Of a stretch of DNA of 42,245 bases, positions 11,092 to 41,420 are shown one piece after another. The DNA is from a virus. The position numbers were made by a program, and so were the translations under genes. The notes below the pieces were generated by a model that searched no databases, was not told where the DNA came from, and saw only the letters and a list, made by a program, of their open reading frames with translations. Within the stretch, counting starts at the first letter, position 1. Each line of letters starts with the position of its first letter. The stretch spans positions 1 through 42,245 of IMG/VR virus record IMGVR_UViG_3300009159_004776, one strand, 5' to 3'.

Positions 11092-11618
11092 AACAGAAAT
11101 TTATTGATTTATATATGGCGTGGGCAGAACGTACAGCTCAATTAAGCCATGCTGTACGTCTACAAGTGGGTGCTGTTATTGTCAAAGATGACAGCGTGAT
11201 CAGCTATGGCTACAATGGTATGCCCGCAGGTTGGGATAACAACTGCGAAGATAAAGAATACATGAGCGTAGACGCAGGAGGTTGGCTAGATCCTGATGAG
11301 ATTAAAGAACAATGGCCTTTTGAAGAAGAACCAAAAATTCAATGGTTCGGTGATGATCCTATAACTGTTACCAATAGATATAAATTGAAAACTAAACCAG
11401 AGGTATTACATGCTGAAACAAATGCGATTGCTAAATTGGCTCGATCTACAAACAGTGGTCTGGGTGCTACTATGTTTGTTACCCATGCTCCATGTATGGA
11501 GTGTGCCAAACTTATCTACCAAAGTGGTATTGGCAGTGTTCTATATCGTAACAGTTATCGTGACACTAGTGGCGTTGCGTTTTTGGAAAAATCGGGTGTA
11601 ACAGTTACACAGGTATGA
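11088..11618 (+). CDS. dCMP deaminase
   Basis: 176 residues. It converts dCMP to dUMP, feeding ThyX. Zinc-site motifs are H108-A-E110 and P135-C136-x-x-C139. The N-terminal segment LSHAVRLQVGAVIVKDD and a long insertion between residues 50 and 100, which in T4-type enzymes holds an allosteric region, match the phage family. A second structural zinc site in the insertion is possible, but only C53 is obvious. ATGA overlaps lie at both ends. Confidence 0.93.
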   Translation: MKQKFIDLYMAWAERTAQLSHAVRLQVGAVIVKDDSVISYGYNGMPAGWDNNCEDKEYMSVDAGGWLDPDEIKEQWPFEEEPKIQWFGDDPITVTNRYKLKTKPEVLHAETNAIAKLARSTNSGLGATMFVTHAPCMECAKLIYQSGIGSVLYRNSYRDTSGVAFLEKSGVTVTQV

Positions 11619-12856
11619 AAAAGAAAATATTGGTAATAGGTGCAGGCAGTGGCGGCCTACTGACTCTTTGCCAAATGTGTTCCTCGCTACCCTATGAATG
11701 GGAAGTTCATTCAGTATATGATCCTAAAATTCCAATATTGGGAGTAGGAGAAGCTACCAGTACCAATGCCCCATTCCAATTGTTTAAAGGCACAGACTTT
11801 ATACTTGAAAGAGACGCACACTATCTTGATGCCACCTACAAGTATGCTGTAAAATACACCAACTGGCGTGAACACGCATTTGACAGTGTTATTATTCCTC
11901 CAGGGCATGCCATGCACTTTGACAACACACGCCTTAAAGAATTTGTGTTTATGCGTCTCAGTGAAAGATATCCCGAACGTTTCTTTATACACGAAGGCAC
12001 TGTAGAATATTTTAAAAACATCACCAATGGTGCTGAAGTAAAAATTAACGATGTTATAGAAACATATGACTATGTTATAGACTGTAGCGGATTCCCTAAA
12101 GACTACACAGGATATACCATGGTTGATTTACCTATTAATCATGCTCTAGTAACTCCCATACACAAGCCCGGCGACTGGAATTACACTCATCATTGGGCAC
12201 ACAAACACGGATGGATGTTTGGTATTCCTTTGCAACATCGTCAAGGTTGGGGGTATCTGTACAATGATCAGATAACTTCTAAAGAAGCTGCCATGGAAGA
12301 TATGTGTGAAATTTTAAAAATTAATCCACTAGAACAAAAATTTAGAGAATACACTTTTAAACCCTACTATACAATAAAAGGATTAGTCAACGGCCGCCTG
12401 TTGAAGAATGGCAATCAATTTATGTTCTTTGAACCTATGGAGGCATTGTCTATGGAGTATTACACTAATTTAAATCAACGATATGTTGCTCTAATGCAGG
12501 GCAAGGAAACTAAACAAGAGCTAGAAAAACAAACACAGTGGTCAGTTAGTTCTTTGATATTCTTTTATAGATTTATCTATCACGGCGGATCCGTATACGA
12601 CACAGAGTTCTGGCGTGTTACTAAAGAGAAATGTAAGCGGTATCTAACCAATGACAGCGAGTTTCAAGAAATGATCAGGTATTGGCGTGATCGTAGTTAC
12701 GATCCAAATTTATCCACAGAATTAAACATGCCCCCATTCCGTGCCTATACTTGGGAACAGTTTAATAAAAATCTAGGCTATGACTACTTTGTGAAACCGG
12801 CCGCACCTCCTGTGAAAAACACTAAATTACAAATTCCTGGATTGCTGTTCGGATAA
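11615..12856 (+). CDS. Flavin-dependent halogenase (tryptophan halogenase family)
   Basis: 413 residues. FADH2-dependent halogenases put Cl, Br or I on aromatic substrates through HOX. Visible: FAD motif GAGSGG (9-14), GVGEAT, the catalytic lysine K76 in ATYKYAVKY (PrnA K79 equivalent) and the catalytic Glu in FEPMEALSMEY (PrnA E346 equivalent). The WxWxIP signature reads WMFGIP, keeping the first Trp and Ile-Pro. FAD fixation residues (DCSGF) are also present. Related viral halogenases occur in cyanophages. It faces a methyltransferase-like gene tail to tail, ending 1 nt away. The substrate is unknown. Confidence 0.8.
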   Translation: MKKKILVIGAGSGGLLTLCQMCSSLPYEWEVHSVYDPKIPILGVGEATSTNAPFQLFKGTDFILERDAHYLDATYKYAVKYTNWREHAFDSVIIPPGHAMHFDNTRLKEFVFMRLSERYPERFFIHEGTVEYFKNITNGAEVKINDVIETYDYVIDCSGFPKDYTGYTMVDLPINHALVTPIHKPGDWNYTHHWAHKHGWMFGIPLQHRQGWGYLYNDQITSKEAAMEDMCEILKINPLEQKFREYTFKPYYTIKGLVNGRLLKNGNQFMFFEPMEALSMEYYTNLNQRYVALMQGKETKQELEKQTQWSVSSLIFFYRFIYHGGSVYDTEFWRVTKEKCKRYLTNDSEFQEMIRYWRDRSYDPNLSTELNMPPFRAYTWEQFNKNLGYDYFVKPAAPPVKNTKLQIPGLLFG

Positions 12857-13875: not shown

Positions 13876-13940
13876 TATTGTTGTATGAAGCAAAGAGAAC
13901 GGTGTTCTGGACGGGGGTGCGAATCCCCCCAGGTCCACCA
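13876..13940 (+). ncRNA. ssrA: tmRNA acceptor piece (3' part, permuted gene)
   Basis: This is the 3' end of tmRNA, placed upstream of the 5' part. The T stem is GGGGG 13913-13917 with CCCCC 13925-13929 around loop TGCGAAT. Next comes CAGGTCC 13930-13936 (the 3' acceptor strand), a discriminator A and an encoded CCA ending at 13940. CAGGTCC pairs with GGGCCTG at 14124-14130 (7 pairs, one G-U). TTGTTG 13878-13883 pairs with CAACAA 14147-14152 as a P2-like helix joining the two pieces. The exact 5' end is uncertain. Confidence 0.85.
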
Positions 13941-13951
13941 TAAGGAAGTTT

Positions 13952-14122
13952 GTGAAAAGTAAAAGTAAGTTCAGTCGTTATAATCTTAAAGGCAACATTA
14001 TGTGGTGCCTTAATTGGCGTAACGGATGGGTAAGAATTTACAACACTATGATTCGTTGGAATACCAATTGGACAACTAATTATAGATACTTTTCAATAGA
14101 ACAAATAAAAGTTTCTTTATGA
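13952..14122 (+). CDS. 56-codon ORF inside the tmRNA intervening segment
   Basis: GTG start at 13952 with AAGGAAG 4-10 nt upstream and a TGA stop at 14120-14122, one base before the mature tmRNA 5' end at 14124. The peptide is basic and Trp/Tyr/Asn-rich: KSKSKFSRYN near the start, then MWCLNWRNGW and IRWNTNWTTNYRY. The frame fills nearly the whole intervening segment (13941-14123), which in known permuted tmRNA genes is usually just discarded RNA. That fit plus the ribosome site argue against chance, but there is no homology support. Confidence 0.5.
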   Translation: MKSKSKFSRYNLKGNIMWCLNWRNGWVRIYNTMIRWNTNWTTNYRYFSIEQIKVSL

Positions 14123-14123
14123 T

Positions 14124-14275
14124 GGGCCTGCATAGTTTCGACAGGGCAACAAGTAACAGAGTGGACAGCACGGTAGGCGATGACCGTTAATCAAGCAAAA
14201 AAAGTAAACGCAAACGACTCACAGTTCGCATTAGCAGCCTAAACACTGCTTAGGGTAGGAAATACCTCGTAACAG
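14124..14275 (+). ncRNA. ssrA: tmRNA coding piece (5' part with tag, permuted gene)
   Basis: It begins GGGCCTGCATAGTTTCGACA, matching the tmRNA 5' end and D-loop region. Stem ACGGT/ACCGT (14170-14174, 14183-14187) fits a PK1-like element. The tag ORF is 14210-14242, encoding ANDSQFALAA then TAA, with an A-rich AGTAAAC just before the resume codon. The stop codon sits in a P5-type hairpin, AGCAG 14233-14237 with CTGCT 14246-14250, as in E. coli tmRNA. The LAA end is the ClpX/ClpA recognition signal. The gene order acceptor then coding makes this a circularly permuted two-piece tmRNA, known in some alphaproteobacteria, cyanobacteria and betaproteobacteria. Confidence 0.92.
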
Positions 14276-22658: not shown

Positions 22659-23073
22659 ACCAACCTAGTTTTTCACCAGCGGCCTTTCTACGGTCGCTTT
22701 CTTCTTTTGTGCTAGGATAACGGCTGGCCCATACCAATATTAGAGCAAAGAACACGCCCATTCCCAATACTGCCTTCCAGTTCTGTGTAGCAAACCACAT
22801 GATAACCAAGCTGGCATCCATGCTTAGGAACATGATCCATTTTACCTTGTTAGGATACACTCTGCCGTCACTCCAGTTATTAATGAACGGTCCAAACAGT
22901 TTGTGATTTAACATATAATCGTGAAACTTTTTACTACTACGAGCAAAACAGTAGGCAGCAATTAAACTGGGTGTTGACCAAGGAATACCTGGCACAATAA
23001 CACCAATATAGGCAATGCCTAAAAATAATATACCTGCCGTAAACCAAAGATACTTTTTAATTTTGTTAATCAT
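22651..23073 (-). CDS. DUF454 (YbaN-like) inner membrane protein
   Basis: 140 residues on the minus strand. Membrane helices are near 8-30 (LWFTAGILFLGIAYIGVIVP), 79-95 and 98-115. The family signature is GVIVPGIPWSTPSLIAAYCF followed by ARSSKKFHDYMLNHKLFGPFI. The molecular function of DUF454 is not known to me. It overlaps hemA by 4 nt in the same operon, suggesting a role linked to tetrapyrroles; this is inference. Confidence 0.85.
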   Translation of the reverse strand: MINKIKKYLWFTAGILFLGIAYIGVIVPGIPWSTPSLIAAYCFARSSKKFHDYMLNHKLFGPFINNWSDGRVYPNKVKWIMFLSMDASLVIMWFATQNWKAVLGMGVFFALILVWASRYPSTKEESDRRKAAGEKLGWFR

Positions 23074-24263
23074 AATATTTCCTTAAGACTACGAGTGAGA
23101 TAGTCAATGTCCGCTTCCGTGTGATTGGGGGTGGGTGTTGCACGAAGTCTTTCAGCCCCCCATGGTACTGTAGGATAATTGATTGGCTGTAGATAAATTG
23201 CTTTTTCTTCTAGCAGCCAATCAGATATGTGTTTACATTTTTTAGCATCACGTATCATAATAGGAACAATGTGTGTGTTGCCTTCCATTACGTCAATACC
23301 GTTGGATAACAAATGTTCCTTTGTCTGTGTTGCTACTTGAAATATTTTAGTACGTAGTTCAGGATGATCAGAAACATACTTAACAGATGCAAGAGCCCCA
23401 GCACACAGCACAGGACTCATACTAGTTGAAAAAATAAAACTTTGAGCAAAACTTCTAATCATATCAATTAAGTCTCTACCTGCGGCAACATAACCTCCCT
23501 GTACCCCGTAGGCTTTAGCCAGCGTACCTTGTATAACGTCAACACCGTCTACGCATCTCTGTTCTTCTGCAATACCTGCACCTCTAGCACCGTATAGTCC
23601 CACAGCATGAACTTCATCAACATAGACCATAGCACCGTATAACCTAGCTATATCACAGACATCGCTGATTAGACCCTTATCGCCGTCCATACTGTACACG
23701 CCTTCTAATGCAATAATTGGCTGTGAGTTTTCTGGTAAATTTTGTAGGATTTCTTTCAAATGTTCAAGGTCGTTATGCCGCCAAACAGTAATTGGTGCAC
23801 CGCTGCTTTTCATACCTACAATCATTGAGTTGTGATTGAACGCATCCGAAATATAATGCACATTTGGAATCATTTTGCCCATTACACCAAGAGCACCTTG
23901 ATTAGCTACATATCCGCTGGTAAAGGTCAGTGCCGAAGTTTTGTCATGCAGTTTGGCTAGTTCGTATTCTAGTGCCACATGATAATGAGTAGTTCCGGAA
24001 ATATTTCTAGTTCCGCCACTGCCTGCTCCGGCGGTATCTAATGCAGTACGCATAGCATCTAGAACAACTTTATGCTGTCCCATGCCCAAATAGTCATTAC
24101 TACACCAATTGGTAATGTGTTTGATATTGTATTTGCCGTAGTAAACAGCCCTTGGAAACTCGCCACACTCACGTAGAATGTCTGTGAAAACTCGATAGTT
24201 TCCATCAGATTTGAGTTTCTCCAAACTTTGTGCTATGGCATCTTGTGTTTTTGGTTTTATCAT
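23070..24263 (-). CDS. hemA: 5-aminolevulinate synthase (ALAS)
   Basis: 397 residues on the minus strand (typical ALAS about 405). It condenses glycine and succinyl-CoA to 5-aminolevulinate, using PLP (Shemin pathway). PLP lysine K250 is in GTLAKAYGV, the ring-binding Asp D216 in VYVDEVHAVG, and the stacking His H144 in DAFNHNSM. The glycine loop GAGSGGTRNISGTTHYH and NDYLGMGQH near 56-64 are hallmarks that separate ALAS from KBL/BioF. PINYPTVPWGAERLR closes the active site. No Shine-Dalgarno is visible; a TAAATA box lies 8 nt upstream. Betaproteobacteria usually make ALA from glutamate (C5 pathway), so this would be a bypass in such a host. Phage ALAS genes have been described in aquatic phages. 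Confidence 0.95.
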   Translation of the reverse strand: MIKPKTQDAIAQSLEKLKSDGNYRVFTDILRECGEFPRAVYYGKYNIKHITNWCSNDYLGMGQHKVVLDAMRTALDTAGAGSGGTRNISGTTHYHVALEYELAKLHDKTSALTFTSGYVANQGALGVMGKMIPNVHYISDAFNHNSMIVGMKSSGAPITVWRHNDLEHLKEILQNLPENSQPIIALEGVYSMDGDKGLISDVCDIARLYGAMVYVDEVHAVGLYGARGAGIAEEQRCVDGVDVIQGTLAKAYGVQGGYVAAGRDLIDMIRSFAQSFIFSTSMSPVLCAGALASVKYVSDHPELRTKIFQVATQTKEHLLSNGIDVMEGNTHIVPIMIRDAKKCKHISDWLLEEKAIYLQPINYPTVPWGAERLRATPTPNHTEADIDYLTRSLKEIL

Positions 24264-30800: not shown

Positions 30801-30815
30801 AATATCTTGTATAAA
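30787..30815 (+). promoter_or_regulatory. Sigma70 / T4-late composite promoter for hsp20
   Basis: TTGACA 30787-30792, then a 17-nt spacer, then TATAAA 30810-30815. The same bases read TATAAATA at 30810-30817, the exact T4 late box. So hsp20 could be served by both host sigma70 and the phage late sigma. Confidence 0.75.
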
Positions 30816-30838
30816 TAAACATGTAGGACGCCGTTAGG

Positions 30839-30892
30839 GTTTTACAAAGGGCATATTGCCCAAAAACGTTCTTGCTTAATAAAGGAGAAAAC
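30839..30892 (+). promoter_or_regulatory. ROSE-like RNA thermometer in hsp20 5' UTR
   Basis: The Shine-Dalgarno AGGAG (30883-30887) pairs with CTTGCT (30871-30876): C-G, T-A, T-G, bulged G74, C-G, T-A, extended by T70-A88 and T69-A89, with a 6-nt loop. U-U-G-C-U opposite the ribosome site with one bulged G is the ROSE-element signature. Upstream is a second helix, GTTTT 30839-30843 with AAAAC 30863-30867, enclosing hairpin GGGCA/TGCCC (30849-30861). Heat melting of the weak last helix would expose the site. Confidence 0.7.
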
Positions 30893-30893
30893 T

Positions 30894-31319
30894 ATGAACG
30901 CTATAACTCGCTTTGACACTCAGTCTCTAAACAGAGCACTTATTGGTTTTGATCAGCTATTCAACAATGTTGAAAGACGCTTTGCAAACCAAGTCCAAAA
31001 CAACTATCCCCCATACAATGTACTAAAACACGATGAAAATCATTTTGAGATTGAAATTGCTGTGGCAGGCTTTGAAAAAGAGGATATCACAATCGAAGTT
31101 GATCAAGATCAATTGATCATCAAAGGGCAACGATTAAAGGATGAAGATGCTGACAAGTATCTACACCGTGGACTAGCTGCCCGTGATTTCGAGCGTAGTT
31201 GGACACTAGCTGAGTACATGGAAGTGGGCGATGCAGAGTTGACAAACGGTATTTTAAGTGTTAAACTAACACGTATAGTACCTGAAGCACTCAAGCCTCG
31301 TTTGATTGCCATTAAGTAA
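30894..31319 (+). CDS. Small heat shock protein Hsp20 (IbpA-like)
   Basis: 141 residues with an alpha-crystallin domain (about 38-128): YNVLKHDENHFEIEIAVAGF, then IEVDQDQLIIKGQR and LSVKLTRIVPE. It holds unfolding proteins in a refoldable state. Its N-terminal segment (NRALIGFDQLFNNVERRFAN) resembles bacterial IbpA/HspA. T4-like cyanophages and pelagiphages often carry hsp20. The start is decided by the AAAGGAG at 30882-30888. Regulated by the thermometer above. Confidence 0.94.
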   Translation: MNAITRFDTQSLNRALIGFDQLFNNVERRFANQVQNNYPPYNVLKHDENHFEIEIAVAGFEKEDITIEVDQDQLIIKGQRLKDEDADKYLHRGLAARDFERSWTLAEYMEVGDAELTNGILSVKLTRIVPEALKPRLIAIK

Positions 31320-31373: not shown

Positions 31374-31676
31374 ATGGCAGAAACTAAAGTTAAAGACGAC
31401 GTAGAAATTGACGAAGAGCTGATGATGCCCAGTCGATATAAAGTTGTGTTGGTCAACGACAATACTACTCCTGTAGATTTTGTTATTGCATTACTGATGC
31501 ACGTTTTCAAACACACTGAAGAACGAGCTAAAGAAATTACCCTAGAAGTTCACAATGAAGGAGCCGGAGTTGCCGGTATATTCCCTTATGAAATTGCTGA
31601 ACAAAAAGGTGTGGAAAGTACACTGTTAGCACGACAAAACGGATGGCCGCTGGTCATCAGAGTAGAGGAAGAATGA
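31374..31676 (+). CDS. clpS: ClpS adaptor
   Basis: 100 residues. SRYKVVLVNDNTTPVDFVI (about 22-40) matches ClpS (YKVILVNDDYTPMEFVI in E. coli); the Asp and the His of the substrate pocket are kept (VND and EVHNEGAGVAG), while the third acidic residue is Asn. GIFPYEIAEQK matches GVFTAEVAETK. ClpS passes N-degron substrates to ClpA. No clpA is in the window, so host ClpA would be the partner. The gene overlaps the heme oxygenase start (ATGA) and heads that operon. With ClpX and tmRNA it suggests phage control of host Clp proteolysis. Confidence 0.92.
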   Translation: MAETKVKDDVEIDEELMMPSRYKVVLVNDNTTPVDFVIALLMHVFKHTEERAKEITLEVHNEGAGVAGIFPYEIAEQKGVESTLLARQNGWPLVIRVEEE

Positions 31677-32215
31677 GCTTAAAAGATCTTACTTGGGACA
31701 AACATCAAGCCGCAGAAGCCACAGATTTTATGAAGTCTGTATTCAAAAAGAAAATGCCCATTAGTGTATGGGCAGACTACACATACAATAAAATGCTATG
31801 GTACGGTGCAATTGAAACCAAAGCCAGTGCAGAAGGTTACTTAGACGACCTACCAGGCATTCAACGTGCCTACTTTCTTTATCAAGACTCTAAAGAATTG
31901 TTAAACGGTGAGTTCCCTCGATTCCGACAAACAGCAATTGATTATCACAGATATATTTTAGATCTTCCTCCAGGCCAAGTACTGGCACATTTATATGTGT
32001 GGCACATGGGTGACTTGTTTGGCGGACAGATGATCAAGAAAATCCTTCCACCACCGCACCGTAATTTAGATTTTAAAGATGTTGATTCATTAAAGGCCGC
32101 AATGCGTCCTAAACTTGATGACAGTCTAGGCGAAGAAGCCAACATTGCCTTTGACTGGGCAATCAAAATAATGGATTCATACAAAGATGAGCTTGGTCTG
32201 GAACACACTGATTGA
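31673..32215 (+). CDS. Heme oxygenase
   Basis: 180 residues from the ATG at 31673, preceded by GAGG; an in-frame ATG at 31643 lies inside clpS without a ribosome site. The proximal heme ligand is H11 in TWDKHQAAE. The distal helix is GDLFGGQ at 113-119, following LAHLYVWHM, where the usual Ser is Phe. It opens heme to biliverdin, CO and iron with ferredoxin electrons. Followed directly by two bilin reductases, which use biliverdin. Known in cyanophages and other aquatic phages. Confidence 0.93.
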   Translation: MSLKDLTWDKHQAAEATDFMKSVFKKKMPISVWADYTYNKMLWYGAIETKASAEGYLDDLPGIQRAYFLYQDSKELLNGEFPRFRQTAIDYHRYILDLPPGQVLAHLYVWHMGDLFGGQMIKKILPPPHRNLDFKDVDSLKAAMRPKLDDSLGEEANIAFDWAIKIMDSYKDELGLEHTD

Positions 32216-32870
32216 CATTCAACAGGAGTTTGAACGTCAGTTTAATCAAACAGGTCTTGAAATACAAGAGCCCGGCTTAGAAAGATTTAATTGGTATAAC
32301 AAAGTCTGGACTAGTGATAGATACCGTCGTGCTCATATTGATGTAGTAGATGCACGTGAGACCAAGGGGCTTTGGATGATGCACTGTTGTGTGTTCCCCC
32401 ACTTAAACAACCCTGCTCCTATATTTGGTTTTGATGTCGTAGCTGGCAAAAATAAAATTACTGGTTGTTTTCATGACTTTAGTCCTGCTGGCGATATTGA
32501 ACATCCTTTGATCGAATGGTTTGCTGGAGAGGCAGTAAAGCTACAGTGGAACAAGATACGCAAATTGCCAGATTGGGCAGAACGTATCTTTACTGAAAGC
32601 ATGATATCTGCGGGTAATGTCAGTGACCCGGCTGAATTAACACAGATTTCTTTACTAGCAAAAAACAATCTTGCACACTATCTAAACACAGTTTCGGATA
32701 CCAACGGTCACAGCGTTGATGTTTCTCGTAATCAAAACTATTACTGTGACAACCAACAGAAAAATCCCCACACACCCAAGGTAATGACTGCCTTGGGATT
32801 AAACGAAGAAGATGTACGTGTGTTTATACAAGATTGCCTGTTTCCTAAAATAGGAATCAAGCATGAGTAA
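32187..32870 (+). CDS. Ferredoxin-dependent bilin reductase 1 (PcyX/PcyA lineage)
   Basis: 227 residues, overlapping heme oxygenase by 29 nt; the start is supported because its N terminus (MSLVWNTL) resembles that of the second reductase (MSNVWDQM). The family core is SDRYRRAHIDVVD, IFGFDVVAGKNKITGCFHDF and NYYCDNQQKNPH. Key residues: D52 (where PcyA has Glu76), H66 (His88), D83 (Asp105) and D178, a candidate for the second catalytic Asp. The His suggests the PcyA/PcyX lineage rather than PebS. Reduces biliverdin stepwise with ferredoxin electrons; the product is not predictable here. Confidence 0.9.
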   Translation: MSLVWNTLIDIQQEFERQFNQTGLEIQEPGLERFNWYNKVWTSDRYRRAHIDVVDARETKGLWMMHCCVFPHLNNPAPIFGFDVVAGKNKITGCFHDFSPAGDIEHPLIEWFAGEAVKLQWNKIRKLPDWAERIFTESMISAGNVSDPAELTQISLLAKNNLAHYLNTVSDTNGHSVDVSRNQNYYCDNQQKNPHTPKVMTALGLNEEDVRVFIQDCLFPKIGIKHE

Positions 32871-33528
32871 TGTCTGGGACCAAATGAGAGACTGTGCAGC
32901 GACCATGCAGTCCATGATGGAAGCAGCAGGTCATAGACATCACGACGCCAGTTTAGATCAATACGATTGGGAAAATCATATCTACCACAGTGATCGGTAT
33001 CGTAGAGGACATGTAGAAGTTGTTGACAAAACAGCCAGTCACGGCATTTATATTTTACATGCTACTATCTTTGCTCACACAGATGATGCTAGTCCTGTAT
33101 GGGGGTTTGATGCTGTATGTGGGAAAAGCAAAATAACAGGCGCCTTTCACGATTTTAGTCTTGTAACGCCCAATCATTATATGTGGCAGTGGTTCCGTGA
33201 TCAGGTCAAAGATATCACATGGAACAAACAGCGTGAACTGCCTGAATGGGCTCGTAATATATTCAGTCCTGCAATGGTGGCTGCAGGTAATATCAGCGAA
33301 CAGCACGAGCTTGATAATATCACAGAATTAGGTATAAAAACACTGGAATATTATTTGTCCAACGTAGGGGATAGGATTGTTGGACAAAACTTCAAAGAAC
33401 AGCAGAATTATTACTGTAAAAATCAAAAGTTAAACCCGCACGTATATCGCAGTATGATTGCTATGGGTGTAGAAGAAGCTGTAATTAAACAGTTTGTAGA
33501 AAAAGTCTTGTTCCCAGAACTAGCATAA
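32863..33528 (+). CDS. Ferredoxin-dependent bilin reductase 2 (PcyX/PcyA lineage)
   Basis: 221 residues, a diverged paralog of the reductase just upstream. Shared: SDRYRRGHVEVVD, WGFDAVCGKSKITGAFHDF, NYYCKNQKLNPH. It has E52, H66 and D83 as in PcyA (Glu76, His88, Asp105), but the residue aligned with D178 of reductase 1 is N176. So the two enzymes probably differ in reaction or order: either two successive steps, or two different bilins. It overlaps the first by 8 nt, with AGGAA before its ATG. Confidence 0.9.
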   Translation: MSNVWDQMRDCAATMQSMMEAAGHRHHDASLDQYDWENHIYHSDRYRRGHVEVVDKTASHGIYILHATIFAHTDDASPVWGFDAVCGKSKITGAFHDFSLVTPNHYMWQWFRDQVKDITWNKQRELPEWARNIFSPAMVAAGNISEQHELDNITELGIKTLEYYLSNVGDRIVGQNFKEQQNYYCKNQKLNPHVYRSMIAMGVEEAVIKQFVEKVLFPELA

Positions 33529-36215: not shown

Positions 36216-36317
36216 ATGAAATTTTTAATAGAACTATATCAAAAGATAACTAGTGATTACAAACTCAAGAAGCGACTCAAAGAGTTGAGGAAACGTGATC
36301 CATTTATCTACAAATGA
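36216..36317 (+). CDS. Tiny basic conserved phage protein
   Basis: 33 residues: MKFLIELYQKITSDYK at the start and KRDPFIYK at the end, with Lys/Arg-rich helix between. The KRDPFIYK end is one I know from small proteins of T4-like cyanophages. The stop overlaps the next gene (ATGA). Function unknown. Confidence 0.6.
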   Translation: MKFLIELYQKITSDYKLKKRLKELRKRDPFIYK

Positions 36318-37195
36318 AAATATTAGGAATTAATGCTCTGAATCATGACGCCAGTGTAGCTGTGCTCGACGGTACAGTACTAATGCATGAACGTGCCAGT
36401 AAGTATTCTGGTATGCCAAATGATCACTATCTTAATCAACAACTGGTCGATCATGCTTTAAGTTTTGGACGGCCCGATGCGATTGCTTATTATGAACAAC
36501 CGTGGATTAAAAAATCAAGACAGTTGTATGCAGGACAATTCAAAGAAGCATTCGATATTTCAAATATTCCTAGTTTATATCTAAAACAGTTTGGACTCGC
36601 TAACATACCTATCAAGTATGTTCCACATCATGCCAGTCATGCTGGCTGTGCATACACTGGCCCTTTCAACAAAGCTGCGGTTATAGTAGTAGATGCAATT
36701 GGAGAATGGGACACTGTTAGCATTTGGAAATTTGACGGCAAACTAGAAAAAGTATATAATAGAACTTACCCCTACAGTTTAGGATTGTTTTATTCTGCAT
36801 TCACTGAACTAGTGGGTCTTGTTCCTACTCAAGACGAAAATGCTTTTATGAAATTAAGTCAATTGGGCGACCCTAAGATGTATTATCAACGTGTGATGTC
36901 ATACATTAATAAAAATTTACATCGGGGTATTTGGGACTGGGATGTTGACATTAACAATACATCTGAGATACAAAATATTTCTGCCGCAGTGCAACAAGTG
37001 TTTGAAGAACAGTTAGAATATATATTTAGAATTGCTAGATTTGAATCTAGTAATGCAATATTCACAGGCGGATGTGCATATAACAAAGTATCACATGGGC
37101 TTTTAGCAAAGATATTTAATGCATATTGGATTCCTAAGAATCCCGGCGATGCTGGATCAAGCCTAGGTGCAGCCTACTATATAAAGAATTTATAA
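36314..37195 (+). CDS. Carbamoyltransferase-like protein, N-terminal domain only
   Basis: 293 residues, about half the family's usual length of 550-600. It keeps the ASKHA-type N-terminal (TsaD/Kae1-like) domain of the NodU/TobZ family: ILGINALNHDASVAVLDG, the metal ligands H105, H106 and H109 in PHHASHAGCAY, VVDAIGEWDT, GGCAYNKVSHG and NPGDAGSSLGAAYY. The C-terminal carbamoyl-transfer half is missing, and the next ORF begins 1 nt after the stop and is a radical SAM protein, so no frameshifted remainder is seen. It may act with another protein. Cyanophages often carry similar genes. Confidence 0.8.
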   Translation: MKILGINALNHDASVAVLDGTVLMHERASKYSGMPNDHYLNQQLVDHALSFGRPDAIAYYEQPWIKKSRQLYAGQFKEAFDISNIPSLYLKQFGLANIPIKYVPHHASHAGCAYTGPFNKAAVIVVDAIGEWDTVSIWKFDGKLEKVYNRTYPYSLGLFYSAFTELVGLVPTQDENAFMKLSQLGDPKMYYQRVMSYINKNLHRGIWDWDVDINNTSEIQNISAAVQQVFEEQLEYIFRIARFESSNAIFTGGCAYNKVSHGLLAKIFNAYWIPKNPGDAGSSLGAAYYIKNL

Positions 37196-37196
37196 G

Positions 37197-38654
37197 ATGG
37201 CAAATGTTATACTATGGAATTCAACTCCAGAAGATAAAGATTGGCAACAGACTATAGATAATCAATCTTTGTTAGTACCGAGAGTATTTCGACCTCTGGG
37301 TCCGCATCAATTAGCCACGTGGCTAAGGAATCATGGCTACACTGTAAAAGTAATTGATTTTTGTAATTATATGACTGTAGATCAACTATTACAGATTACA
37401 GAAAAATACATCGACTCTTCTACACTAGCAATAGGAGTTAGTACTACTTTCTGGCCAACGGGCACTAGAGTTTTATCAGTTAATAATCCTAAACAGATCT
37501 ATGATGTGCCGCAGTGGGTAGAATCTGCAAGAAAAAGAATTGAAAGCAAGTTTACAAATATCAAATGGTGCCTAGGAGGTGCTAGGACATTTTATTATCA
37601 GAATAGATCTGAGTGGCAGTGTTTCAGTGGTGATGCTGAAGACTCATTATTAAAATGGGTTGATGAGATTTCAGGCAAAAAAATAGTCAGACCACTGTTT
37701 GATATAAAAGAAGCATCATCACATTTTGTAGAAGATGATCATATACAACCGCAAGAAGTAATACCAATAGAGTTAGGACGTGGTTGTATGTTTAAGTGTA
37801 AATTTTGTTCTTTTGACAAACTAGGTAAGAAACCAGGAACCTATTTAAAAAATTATCATCGAGTCTATCAAGAAATACTAGACCACCATAACAAATGGGG
37901 AACTACTCGATTTGTCTATGTTGATGATACAGTTAACGAAAGCGAAGAAAAAATTCAAGCACTGGCAGATATAGCACTTAGTGTCCCTTTTAAATTAGAA
38001 TGGGTGGGTTTTATACGTGCAGATTTAATTTGGTCCAAACCACAAACAGCTAAATTATTAAAAGAAAGTGGATTAAGATCTGCATCAATTGGCATCGAGA
38101 GTTTTGAAAGAAAATCAAGTCAGTTGATTGGCAAAGGGTGGAGTGGAAAACATGCCAAAGATTGGCTGCTGGAAAAAAGAGCAGAATGGGGAGACGATGT
38201 TAACTGGTATCTTAGCTTAATTGTAGGTATTCCGGGTCAGACATTTAAACAATTAAATGACGACTGCGATTGGTTAATAAACAACGATATGCATAGTTGG
38301 AGTTTTCTTCCTTTATATATCATGTCTGATCATCAACAGATTGAGGGTAGCTGGATGAGTGAATTTACAAGAAACTACAATCAATATGGTTTTCACTTTC
38401 CTGATCCTAATAGGGCATGGTATTGGGAAAACGGCAAATGGAACTTTGACGTTGCGTTAGAAGTAAGTAGATTGTTAAATGAAAAAGGCTTTAAGTATAC
38501 AAAATCGACAAGTTTTCAAATGGCCGAAACAGCTACTCATGGATTTGAATTTGATGAACTAATGAATCTAAAATGGAGTGATTATCCCTGGAAAAGAGTT
38601 TATAAATCAGCTACAACATTTATCGACAAATATATCAAATTAAATTTACAATAA
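37197..38654 (+). CDS. B12-binding-like radical SAM protein 1
   Basis: 485 residues. N-terminal 1-160: a cobalamin-binding-like Rossmann fold (GPHQLATWLRNHGYTVKVID, then IKWCLGGART). The radical SAM cluster C-x3-C-x2-C is in GRGCMFKCKFC (about 198-208). The core continues with VYVDDTVNESEEKIQAL, RSASIGIESF and SLIVGIPGQT. Radical SAM/B12 enzymes methylate or rearrange unreactive carbons; the substrate is unknown. It follows the carbamoyltransferase-like gene by 1 nt. Confidence 0.88.
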   Translation: MANVILWNSTPEDKDWQQTIDNQSLLVPRVFRPLGPHQLATWLRNHGYTVKVIDFCNYMTVDQLLQITEKYIDSSTLAIGVSTTFWPTGTRVLSVNNPKQIYDVPQWVESARKRIESKFTNIKWCLGGARTFYYQNRSEWQCFSGDAEDSLLKWVDEISGKKIVRPLFDIKEASSHFVEDDHIQPQEVIPIELGRGCMFKCKFCSFDKLGKKPGTYLKNYHRVYQEILDHHNKWGTTRFVYVDDTVNESEEKIQALADIALSVPFKLEWVGFIRADLIWSKPQTAKLLKESGLRSASIGIESFERKSSQLIGKGWSGKHAKDWLLEKRAEWGDDVNWYLSLIVGIPGQTFKQLNDDCDWLINNDMHSWSFLPLYIMSDHQQIEGSWMSEFTRNYNQYGFHFPDPNRAWYWENGKWNFDVALEVSRLLNEKGFKYTKSTSFQMAETATHGFEFDELMNLKWSDYPWKRVYKSATTFIDKYIKLNLQ

Positions 38655-38657
38655 ATA
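38650..38657 (+). promoter_or_regulatory. T4-late-like box AATAAATA
   Basis: Overlaps the stop of radical SAM 1 and ends 4 nt before the start of radical SAM 2. Confidence 0.4.
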
Positions 38658-38661
38658 GATC

Positions 38662-40155
38662 ATGGCAAATTTTATTATATGGGCTACTCCGGGTACTGCT
38701 GAAGTTGTAAGATCTCACTATAGGAATCTTGTAAAAGCCAAAGAAAGACCTTCTCATACTTACCAAAGTTTTATTTGGCATACAGACAAACAAATTGATC
38801 CTAAAGAGGCTATACCTCCAAGATGGTGCAGGACTCTAGGTCCTTATCAGCTTGCAAGTTGGTTAAGAGGACACGGTTATACTGTAAAAATTATTGACTT
38901 CTGTTTGTTCATGACTACAGATCAATTGGTGAGAATTACCGAAAAACACATTGATAATGATACTTTGGCTATTGGGGCTAGTACTTCTTTTTGGCAAATG
39001 TTTGAAACCGTGCCTCAATGGGCTATCGATGCTAGAATACATATTAACAAAAAATTTAAAAATATTAAATGGTGCCTTGGTGGTCACGGTGCTAATAGAT
39101 TTCAATTGCAAGGTTGGGAAGTCCTTCAAGGAGAGGGTGAAAATGTAGTTTTAAGATGGCTGGACGAATTAGCAGGTAAAAAAATGTTTAGACAGCCTTT
39201 TGATATTAAAGAAACCTCAAATGCATTCATGCCAGATGATTTTATTCAACCTTATGAATTTATCCCCGTAGAACTTGGGCGAGGTTGTAAGTTTAAATGT
39301 AAATTTTGTCAATTCCCAAACATAGGTAAAAAACCAGGAACTTATTTAAAAAATTATGAATGTTTATACAGAGAAATACTAGACCACCATAACAAATGGG
39401 GTACTACTAGATTTTATTATACTGACGATACTGTTAACGAAAGCGAAGAAAAAATTCAAGCATTGGTAGATATAGCACAACGAGTGCCATTTAAACTAGA
39501 ATGGATCGGCTATAATAGGATAGATTTAATTTGGTCAAAACCGCACACTGCTGAATTATTAAAAGAAAGTGGACTACGATCTGCTTTCTTTGGCATTGAA
39601 AGTTTTGAAAGAAAATCAAGTCTATTAATAGGTAGAGGATGGAGCGGCCTACATGCTAAAGATTGGTTACTTGAACTAAAAGACATTTGGAAAGACCAAA
39701 TAAATTGGTCAGTGGCCACTATTGTGGGAGTACCAGGCCAGACTCCTGAACAACTAATAAACGATTGTGACTGGATGATAGAAAATAAAATGTATTCGTG
39801 TACAATGCATGCCTTGCATATTAATCCGTCAAATACAAGTTTAATGGCATCCCAAAGTGAATTTGAAAGAAATTATCAAGAATATGGTTTTCAATTCCCT
39901 GACCCGGCACGTCCCTGGTATTGGGAAAATGGTTTTTGGAATTATGATAAAGCTCTAGCAATGACAGACCTTCTTTTAAGTAAAACTACTAAGCATCAAA
40001 AATTGGCTTCGTGGGAACTGGGAGAATATGCATCATTGGGCTATAGTGTAGATGAATTAATTAATGTAGATCAAATAAAATTGTTGCATGATCAAGAAAT
40101 TTTTACAAAATCTTGGAATTTTATTGAAAACTATGTTACAAAAAATTTATTGTAA
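38662..40155 (+). CDS. B12-binding-like radical SAM protein 2 (paralog)
   Basis: 497 residues, a clear paralog of the gene upstream, with a 35-residue N-terminal extension. Cluster motif GRGCKFKCKFC (about 211-221), GPYQLASWLRGHGYTVKIID in the N-terminal fold, YYTDDTVNESEEKIQAL, RSAFFGIESF. The nucleotide identity to copy 1 reaches 30 bases without change at 39372-39401 (copy 1: 37871-37900), so the duplication is rather recent or is kept alike by recombination. The differences lie mostly in the C-terminal third, where substrate recognition is expected. Confidence 0.88.
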   Translation: MANFIIWATPGTAEVVRSHYRNLVKAKERPSHTYQSFIWHTDKQIDPKEAIPPRWCRTLGPYQLASWLRGHGYTVKIIDFCLFMTTDQLVRITEKHIDNDTLAIGASTSFWQMFETVPQWAIDARIHINKKFKNIKWCLGGHGANRFQLQGWEVLQGEGENVVLRWLDELAGKKMFRQPFDIKETSNAFMPDDFIQPYEFIPVELGRGCKFKCKFCQFPNIGKKPGTYLKNYECLYREILDHHNKWGTTRFYYTDDTVNESEEKIQALVDIAQRVPFKLEWIGYNRIDLIWSKPHTAELLKESGLRSAFFGIESFERKSSLLIGRGWSGLHAKDWLLELKDIWKDQINWSVATIVGVPGQTPEQLINDCDWMIENKMYSCTMHALHINPSNTSLMASQSEFERNYQEYGFQFPDPARPWYWENGFWNYDKALAMTDLLLSKTTKHQKLASWELGEYASLGYSVDELINVDQIKLLHDQEIFTKSWNFIENYVTKNLL

Positions 40156-40298: not shown

Positions 40299-41420
40299 AT
40301 GAAAAAATTAGTTATTGCGGCAGCTTTGCTGATCGCAGGGTATGCACAAGCCCAGAATGTACAGTTGTACGGTGTTGCAGGAGCAGGTATTGTTAGTGGT
40401 AGTGGTTTCACTTCCAGCAACAGTGACTTCACTGGCATGGGTGAACAACTACACAACAGCAACCGTTTTGGTATCAAAGGCGTTGAAGACATAGGTGGTG
40501 GCTTGACAGCTAAATTTACCTTGGAAGGTAACTATAGTCTACGTACTGGTGCAGTTGGTAAAGACTCTGGCGGTACAGGAGCAGCAGGTACAACAATGTT
40601 TGATCGTGAAGCTAACATGGCATTAGCCGGTGACTTTGGTCAAGTTCAATTGGGCCGTGGCAAGAATTTTTTGTATCAAGTTGCTGACGAATTTGACTCA
40701 CGTGGTAACTGGAACTTTGGTGGTTTGAAATCAGCTGCTCGTTACGCTGGGTTCTACTCAGGTTCGGGTGTATCACGTTTTGACAACATGGTTCGTTACA
40801 CATCACCTAGCTTTGGCGGTTTGACATTTGATGGTGCCTATAGCTTTGGTAATCAGCCAGGCGACCAATCATACAAGACTAGCCATAACGTTGGCGTTCG
40901 TTACACAACAGGCCCATTGGATATTGCCTATACACACGAACAGGCTCGTTTGAGCACTGCTGTAGTCAGTGAAGAAATTGATCTAGTAGCAGTCAAGTAT
41001 GCTGTCAATCCAAAGTTGGTTGTAAATGCAGGTTATGCTATTACACGTAACCCAACAGCACAGACCACATACTACTCAAGCTCAAGCAAGGCAGATGGTA
41101 AGACAGATGCTAACACTTACTTCCTAGGTGCCAAGTACAAAGTTACTGATGCTCTAGGCGTTAACGCAGGTTACTACAGCGTTCAAGATCGAATTACTGC
41201 TGGTAAAGACACTGTCAAAATGACAGCAGTTGGTGTTACCTATGCTTTCAGCAAGCGTACAGAAGTATTTGCTGACTATGTAGTTGCAGACCGTGCTAGC
41301 GGTGCAGTAAGCCCATTCACAGTATATGACCGTTGGGTTCCAGATGCAGGTGGTACAACATACAGCGACAGCAAATACAAACAAAATGCTATTGCAGTCG
41401 GTATTCAACACCGCTTCTAA
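40299..41420 (+). CDS. Gram-negative (betaproteobacterial-type) porin
   Basis: 373 residues, full length. Signal peptide 1-18 (MKKLVIAAALLIAGYAQA), then QNVQLYGVAGAGI, the usual first strand of betaproteobacterial porins. Alternating polar/aromatic strands continue throughout: GLTAKFTLEGNY, DFGQVQLGRGKNFLYQVA, GLTFDGAYSFG, FLGAKYKVTDALGVNAGYYS. It ends in NAIAVGIQHRF, the terminal Phe needed for Bam-mediated insertion. The loop region PFTVYDRWVPDAGGTTYSDS is unusual. Forms a trimeric channel in the outer membrane. Own host-type promoter and terminator. Base composition seems higher in G+C than its neighbours, as expected for a gene taken from the host. Confidence 0.93.
   Translation: MKKLVIAAALLIAGYAQAQNVQLYGVAGAGIVSGSGFTSSNSDFTGMGEQLHNSNRFGIKGVEDIGGGLTAKFTLEGNYSLRTGAVGKDSGGTGAAGTTMFDREANMALAGDFGQVQLGRGKNFLYQVADEFDSRGNWNFGGLKSAARYAGFYSGSGVSRFDNMVRYTSPSFGGLTFDGAYSFGNQPGDQSYKTSHNVGVRYTTGPLDIAYTHEQARLSTAVVSEEIDLVAVKYAVNPKLVVNAGYAITRNPTAQTTYYSSSSKADGKTDANTYFLGAKYKVTDALGVNAGYYSVQDRITAGKDTVKMTAVGVTYAFSKRTEVFADYVVADRASGAVSPFTVYDRWVPDAGGTTYSDSKYKQNAIAVGIQHRF

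Follow-up and report, generated by a model that had tools for sequence, protein, structure and literature searches.

A conserved ROSE-like leader RNA precedes hsp20, dnaK and groES genes of aquatic phages

The closest described relatives of the leader reported here are the ROSE elements, which a 2014 review describes as invariably linked to small heat-shock genes of bacteria (PMC4166951). Classical ROSE elements (RF00435; Bradyrhizobium hspA, E. coli ibpA) control small heat-shock genes through a UYGCU/Shine-Dalgarno (SD) core and contain three to four hairpins (PMC3669281). The short form, ROSE_3 (RF02523), is represented by Pseudomonas ibpA, in which two hairpins precede a small heat-shock gene (Krajewski et al. 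2013, PMC3669281); probing shows that hairpin II melts on warming and hairpin I does not, and ibpA leaders of five species confer heat induction, with reporters responding to heat (PMC3669281). Temperature-dependent exposure of a ribosome-binding site (RBS) in a phage mRNA is described for the Lambda cIII thermosensor (PMC4166951), which differs in using two alternative folds, in occluding the RBS on warming and in serving a lysis-lysogeny gene, and which is not known to contain a ROSE motif. Among marine cyanomyoviruses, hsp20 itself belongs to the core genes, and its role has been guessed to lie in capsid maturation (PMC3037559). We found no account of phage hsp20 regulation in the open-access literature searched, and the open-access literature on thermometers with phage, cyanophage or hsp20 does not report the present element (subscription papers were outside the search).

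The window analysed here is the whole 42,245-nucleotide stretch (positions 1-42,245) of IMG/VR virus record IMGVR_UViG_3300009159_004776. Its hsp20 gene (30894-31319, plus strand, as are all leader features below; ATG at 30894) encodes an IbpA-like small heat-shock protein of the Hsp20/alpha-crystallin type, supported by Pfam (HSP20, 66.6 bits), PHROG (432, Hsp20) and NCBIfam, where the IbpA model scores 133.6 bits, under its cut-off of 212. The next gene, clpS (31374-31676, plus strand; Pfam ClpS, 88.9 bits), probably shares an mRNA with hsp20, as inferred from the spacing. The hsp20 leader folds into three hairpins. Hairpin 1 (H1; 30823-30845) reads GUAGGAC[G]CC-GUUA-GGGUUUUAC with a bulged G at 30830 and is supported by its fold (-9.3 kcal/mol, z = -4.1), by covariation and by the hairpin I shape of ROSE_3. 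A middle hairpin, GGGCAUAUUGCCC (30849-30861), is supported by its fold and by variants in relatives. In hairpin 2, the proposed switch (30869-30889, UUCUUGCUUAAUAAAGGAGAA; supported by conservation, covariation and a covariance model, R1), the anti-SD strand UUCUU[G]CUU (30869-30877, bulged G 30874) pairs across an AAUA loop with AAGGAGAA (30882-30889), which contains the SD AGGAG (30883-30887). The first-pass annotation of this leader had claimed an SD paired with CUUGCU around one bulged G and a second stable helix upstream; both claims held, the helix being the middle hairpin, while its span of 30839-30892 was only partly right, cutting through H1, which it had missed. H1 (YGCC/GGG) and hairpin 2 (YGCU/AGG) also contain the same bulged-G module twice, once stable and once weak, as does the ROSE_3 consensus; a duplication is conceivable.

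Compared with RF02523 and the Pseudomonas ibpA leader, the phage leaders share two hairpins before a small heat-shock gene, the bulged G of H1 (YGCC/GGG), a U(U/C)GCU anti-SD with a bulged G, an SD inside the 3' hairpin and an ATG just downstream. The window copy has the anti-SD typical of ROSE-like elements (UUGCU, 30872-30876, opposite AAGGAG), their position upstream of a small heat-shock gene and both hairpins of the ROSE_3 layout, with one extra between them, so that its description as ROSE-like is supported in anatomy, namely the bulged-G anti-SD, the stable upstream hairpin and the small heat-shock gene. An Rfam ROSE search, which had been put forward as a check, gave a divided answer. 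ROSE_3 matches hsp20 leaders of related phages at 44.4 (L448), 38.7, 36.7 and 34.1 bits and a dnaK leader at 23.9 bits; the alignments run end to end, and the hairpin I bulged G (consensus AUGCC..GGGU) and CUYGCU..AGGAG are common to both. However, only L448 passes the gathering cut-off of 43 bits and most relatives fall under it, a scan of 15 relatives' leaders at the Rfam gathering cut-off gave no ROSE match, and the window copy has no ROSE match even at E <= 10, RF00435 included. The phage leaders further differ from RF02523 in their phage genomes, in a T4-late-type promoter that replaces the sigma-32 promoter, in a weaker, A+T-rich hairpin 2, in the extra middle hairpin of the window's clade and in their occurrence also before dnaK and groES. 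By layout, the phage leader is thus probably a diverged branch of the short ROSE elements, formal Rfam membership being limited to one relative and not extending to the window copy.

Other known elements fit less well. FourU, cyanobacterial hsp17-type and riboswitch readings were rejected for lack of any Rfam match at the leader; the anti-SD, CUUGCUU, also lacks the four U opposite the SD that define a fourU element. The freshwater-2 RNA (RF02980), a hairpin followed by AAGGAGAAAAC..AUG, matches the window leader weakly (14.5 bits, E = 3.7), far under its cut-off of 49.9, and was taken as chance, as were weak rimP and atpB matches.

The pairing is conserved in relatives, a property whose absence would have refuted the ROSE reading. 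Among 166 distinct phage hsp20 leaders picked by Hsp20 protein similarity and not by motif, 159 contain UYGCU..SD. These leaders comprise the set found with the window Hsp20, three sets retrieved with Hsp20 queries from cyanophage P-TIM40, pelagiphage HTVC008M and methylophage Melnitz-3, and ten GenBank phages; the counts by set are 45/47, 42/42, 5/10, 59/59 and 8/8 distinct leaders. The element is present in the hsp20 leaders of the cultured phages P-TIM40, Melnitz and HTVC008M. Nearly all of the 62 IMG/VR loci matched by the window Hsp20 share three features: a promoter of late or sigma-70 type, a GUAGGGyGCC-loop-GGGCCCUAC-type hairpin, and UUCUUGCUUAN(2-7)AAGGAG directly 5' of the start codon. 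The anti-SD varies within the ROSE consensus: freshwater phages and the Melnitz group have UUGCU, cyanophages UCGCU and pelagiphages UUUGCU; CUGUCU replaces UYGCU in five related pelagiphage leaders.

The stems also covary. Because MAFFT alignments of these very diverse leaders misplace the SD strand, we aligned 113 leaders (110 distinct) to covariance model R1 (alignment A5). In this alignment, 91.5% of paired cells are complementary versus 75.6% after shuffling, 292 cells are changed on both sides versus 92, and the covariation score is 0.399 versus 0.138 (reached in 0/500 shuffles), falling to <=0.075 on sliding by 1-3 columns. In H1, both sides are changed in 7/8 stem pairs, with 95.9% paired across the 113 leaders. 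No variation is seen in the core of hairpin 2, as would be expected for a sequence facing the SD; its two outer pairs alternate between U-A, A-U and C-G. Since alignment A5 had been fitted to the structure, we repeated the analysis on 111 leaders with the YGCY..RGG loop motif as sole anchor and no structural alignment; pairing at six H1 flank positions was 98/90/95/79/72/62%, versus 42-57% after shuffling. Model R1 places the window's hairpin 1 on its middle hairpin. The middle hairpin occurs only in the window's clade and in some dnaK leaders; relatives show 23 distinct versions of it, in which GGGC/GCCC is exchanged with GGAC/GUCC and GGAGC/GCUCC; the search for it demanded perfect complementarity and so gives a range of versions, not a pairing rate.

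The same leader is found on phage hsp20, dnaK and groES genes. It stands before chaperone genes in hundreds of aquatic phages, suggesting that these phages adjust chaperone output through RNA folding; its first description as a phage hsp20 element was right but too narrow. A motif scan of IMG/VR returned at least 131 sites in 120 stretches, with 77 before Hsp20, 27 before DnaK and 3 before GroES, the rest being truncated Hsp20 genes, unassigned, or chance occurrences in coding regions. Each of 16 records of 43-345 kb has the motif once or twice, at dnaK/hsp20, except for two matches elsewhere with other spacing, and in the 42-kb window it occurs nowhere but at this leader. Model R1, run on 24 whole records, matches only hsp20, dnaK, groES and one gene with a weak phasin match; in the window the leader (37.1 bits, E 5e-7) is the sole significant match, the next having E 1.6. 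In phages of the L009 type, with gene order dnaK-hsp20-clpS-heme oxygenase-like, a separate promoter and leader precede each of dnaK and hsp20, and the H1 sequences of the two leaders differ yet remain paired. The phasin-like gene, which encodes 120 aa, is preceded by a ROSE_3 match of 34.3 bits (L451 1-701; G029:55300-56000); a ROSE-type element may here serve a gene outside the known chaperones.

A stricter pattern run over 257 Gb of bacterial and archaeal genomes (GTDB) gave 38 matches, one of them before hsp20 (L238, Alcanivoracaceae), and R1, run on 38 relatives of that genome with the best 150 candidates scored in each, gave no clear copy; a bacterial origin of the leader was rejected on these grounds. 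Among 56 genomes of that order, ROSE_3 matched three times, always under the cut-off, so that no bacterial positive control above the cut-off was obtained. The rarity of the pattern also bears on a first alternative, chance pairing of a pyrimidine-rich run with a nearby purine-rich SD. In its favour, the single-sequence energy statistics of hairpin 2 are not significant (23 nt alone, -2.6 kcal/mol, z = -0.9; complete leader, z = -2.2). It is refuted by the comparative data, that is, conservation across hundreds of phage leaders together with H1 covariation, and can be virtually ruled out. The window leader is beyond chance on comparative data, not on energy, because its motif is unique in 42 kb, rare per record and kept in leaders selected by protein.

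Just upstream of H1 lies TATAAATA (30810-30817), a T4 late promoter sequence and the sole exact copy on both strands of the window; by inference, it would start the mRNA at about the 5' base of hairpin 1. An element of the xATAAATA/TTAAATA type is present upstream of 93/169 distinct hsp20 leaders and 55/57 dnaK leaders, versus 3.3% of random stretches. The window leader lacks the heat-shock sigma factor promoter of bacterial ROSE elements and has this late-type element instead, and a heat-shock sigma promoter is unnecessary for RNA function. A second alternative is a constitutive late-mRNA leader in which hairpin 1 guards the 5' end, a strong and conserved RBS produces hairpin 2 as a mere side effect, and nothing is regulated. 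For it speak the promoter directly upstream, the modest energy of hairpin 2 and the invariance of the hairpin 2 core, which leaves the inner pairs without covariation. Against it, a plain RBS gives the anti-SD arm no reason to be invariant, the outer pairs switch between U-A, A-U and C-G, the cyanophage UCGCU and pelagiphage UUUGCU stay within the ROSE consensus, and the motif is limited to chaperone genes and not spread across late genes. We consider this reading unlikely; a general late-gene leader or generic strong RBS was rejected as R1 and the motif are confined, few chance matches aside, to chaperone genes and the phasin-like gene.

We favour, with a probability of roughly 0.72, a diverged phage-borne branch of short ROSE-type elements that controls chaperone translation, temperature sensing being inferred from homology. 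Under this ROSE reading, the late phage mRNA would begin at or near hairpin 1, which, stable and GC-richer, would cap the 5' end, prevent misfolding of the remainder and guide folding. In hairpin 2, the SD would be held by the UYGCU anti-SD with its bulged G, and few ribosomes would load at the usual growth temperature. On warming, hairpin 2 would loosen while hairpin 1 remained closed, and Hsp20 (in relatives, DnaK or GroES) would then be made when proteins unfold. The late transcription start, the translational repression and the temperature response in this scheme are all inferred. The reading rests on sequence comparison, by which the anatomy, conservation, covariation, restriction to chaperone genes and similarity to ROSE_3 are established, and there are no expression or probing data for these phages.

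Several observations weigh against it. The window copy has no Rfam ROSE match, hairpin 2 is weak, and melting calculations do not discriminate: computed SD opening in the window leader rises from 0.02 to 0.22 between 5 and 42 C, predicted SD accessibility of the window hsp20 is no lower than that of other window genes, and the predicted opening with temperature is indistinguishable from that of ordinary control genes. Proof by melting calculation thus failed, and the temperature response claimed in the first-pass annotation is inferred from homology only, since no computation shows temperature dependence. When coding bases are included, the energy model predicts that an alternative stem, CGUUC/GAACG (30867-30871 with 30896-30900), outdoes hairpin 2 at 37 C, a caution for the window's clade. 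Many hosts, moreover, live in water with small temperature changes. We regard the leader as a genuine phage variant of ROSE, conserved and found on dnaK and groES as well, for which a temperature response is inferred from homology alone.

A third alternative does not require temperature as the primary signal. IbpA of E. coli binds the 5' UTR of its own mRNA and thereby represses translation, an activity that needs Arg93 (PMC10474464). By the same logic, the phage leader may be an Hsp20 operator, with translation blocked by free Hsp20 oligomers bound to the ROSE-type RNA until unfolded phage or host proteins titrate Hsp20 away and allow hsp20 (and dnaK, groES) to be translated, temperature being just one cause of titration. 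An Arg93 equivalent is present in 169/178 distinct phage Hsp20s, including that of the window (GLAARDFERSW around this residue), a Y34 equivalent is present in 164/178, and a trans-acting regulator would fit the occurrence of a single leader shape on several chaperone genes. Against this, the position of K98, a further residue required in E. coli, almost never holds a basic residue in phage Hsp20s (S in the window), and Arg93 is conserved more widely among small heat-shock proteins, making its presence weak evidence. With no RNA-binding data, we lean slightly away from the operator reading, although it might act together with melting and is a serious rival or a partner. A bolder reading, which we regard as no more than possible, is that in many T4-like aquatic phages a single ROSE-type element, shared by hsp20, dnaK and groES, governs a chaperone regulon of the phage's own. 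The element would read temperature and, through titration of phage Hsp20, unfolded-protein load, and would match virion assembly and host proteostasis late in infection. If the favoured ROSE reading is true, phage chaperone control would be a common and testable case in which aquatic viruses sense temperature or proteostasis through RNA, and it would matter for the response of infection as water warms.

The window contains further genes of note. A permuted (two-piece) tmRNA gene lies at 13879-14242 (plus strand; Rfam RF04321, 127.6 bits), and permuted phage tmRNAs have been reported for Melnitz-like phages (PMC9004378). A 5-aminolevulinate synthase (23070-24263, minus strand; TIGR01821, 533 bits), a heme oxygenase (31643-32215) and a bilin reductase (32187-32870) together correspond to the Shemin-pathway phage type of PMC11480375; the gene at 32863-33528 also matches a ferredoxin oxidoreductase PHROG. 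Genes on the plus strand at 11615-12856 and 36314-40155 form an unusual auxiliary set of tryptophan-halogenase-like, carbamoyltransferase and two radical-SAM genes, and a Gram-negative porin (Porin_4, 151 bits) is encoded at 40299-41420 (plus strand) on this virus record.
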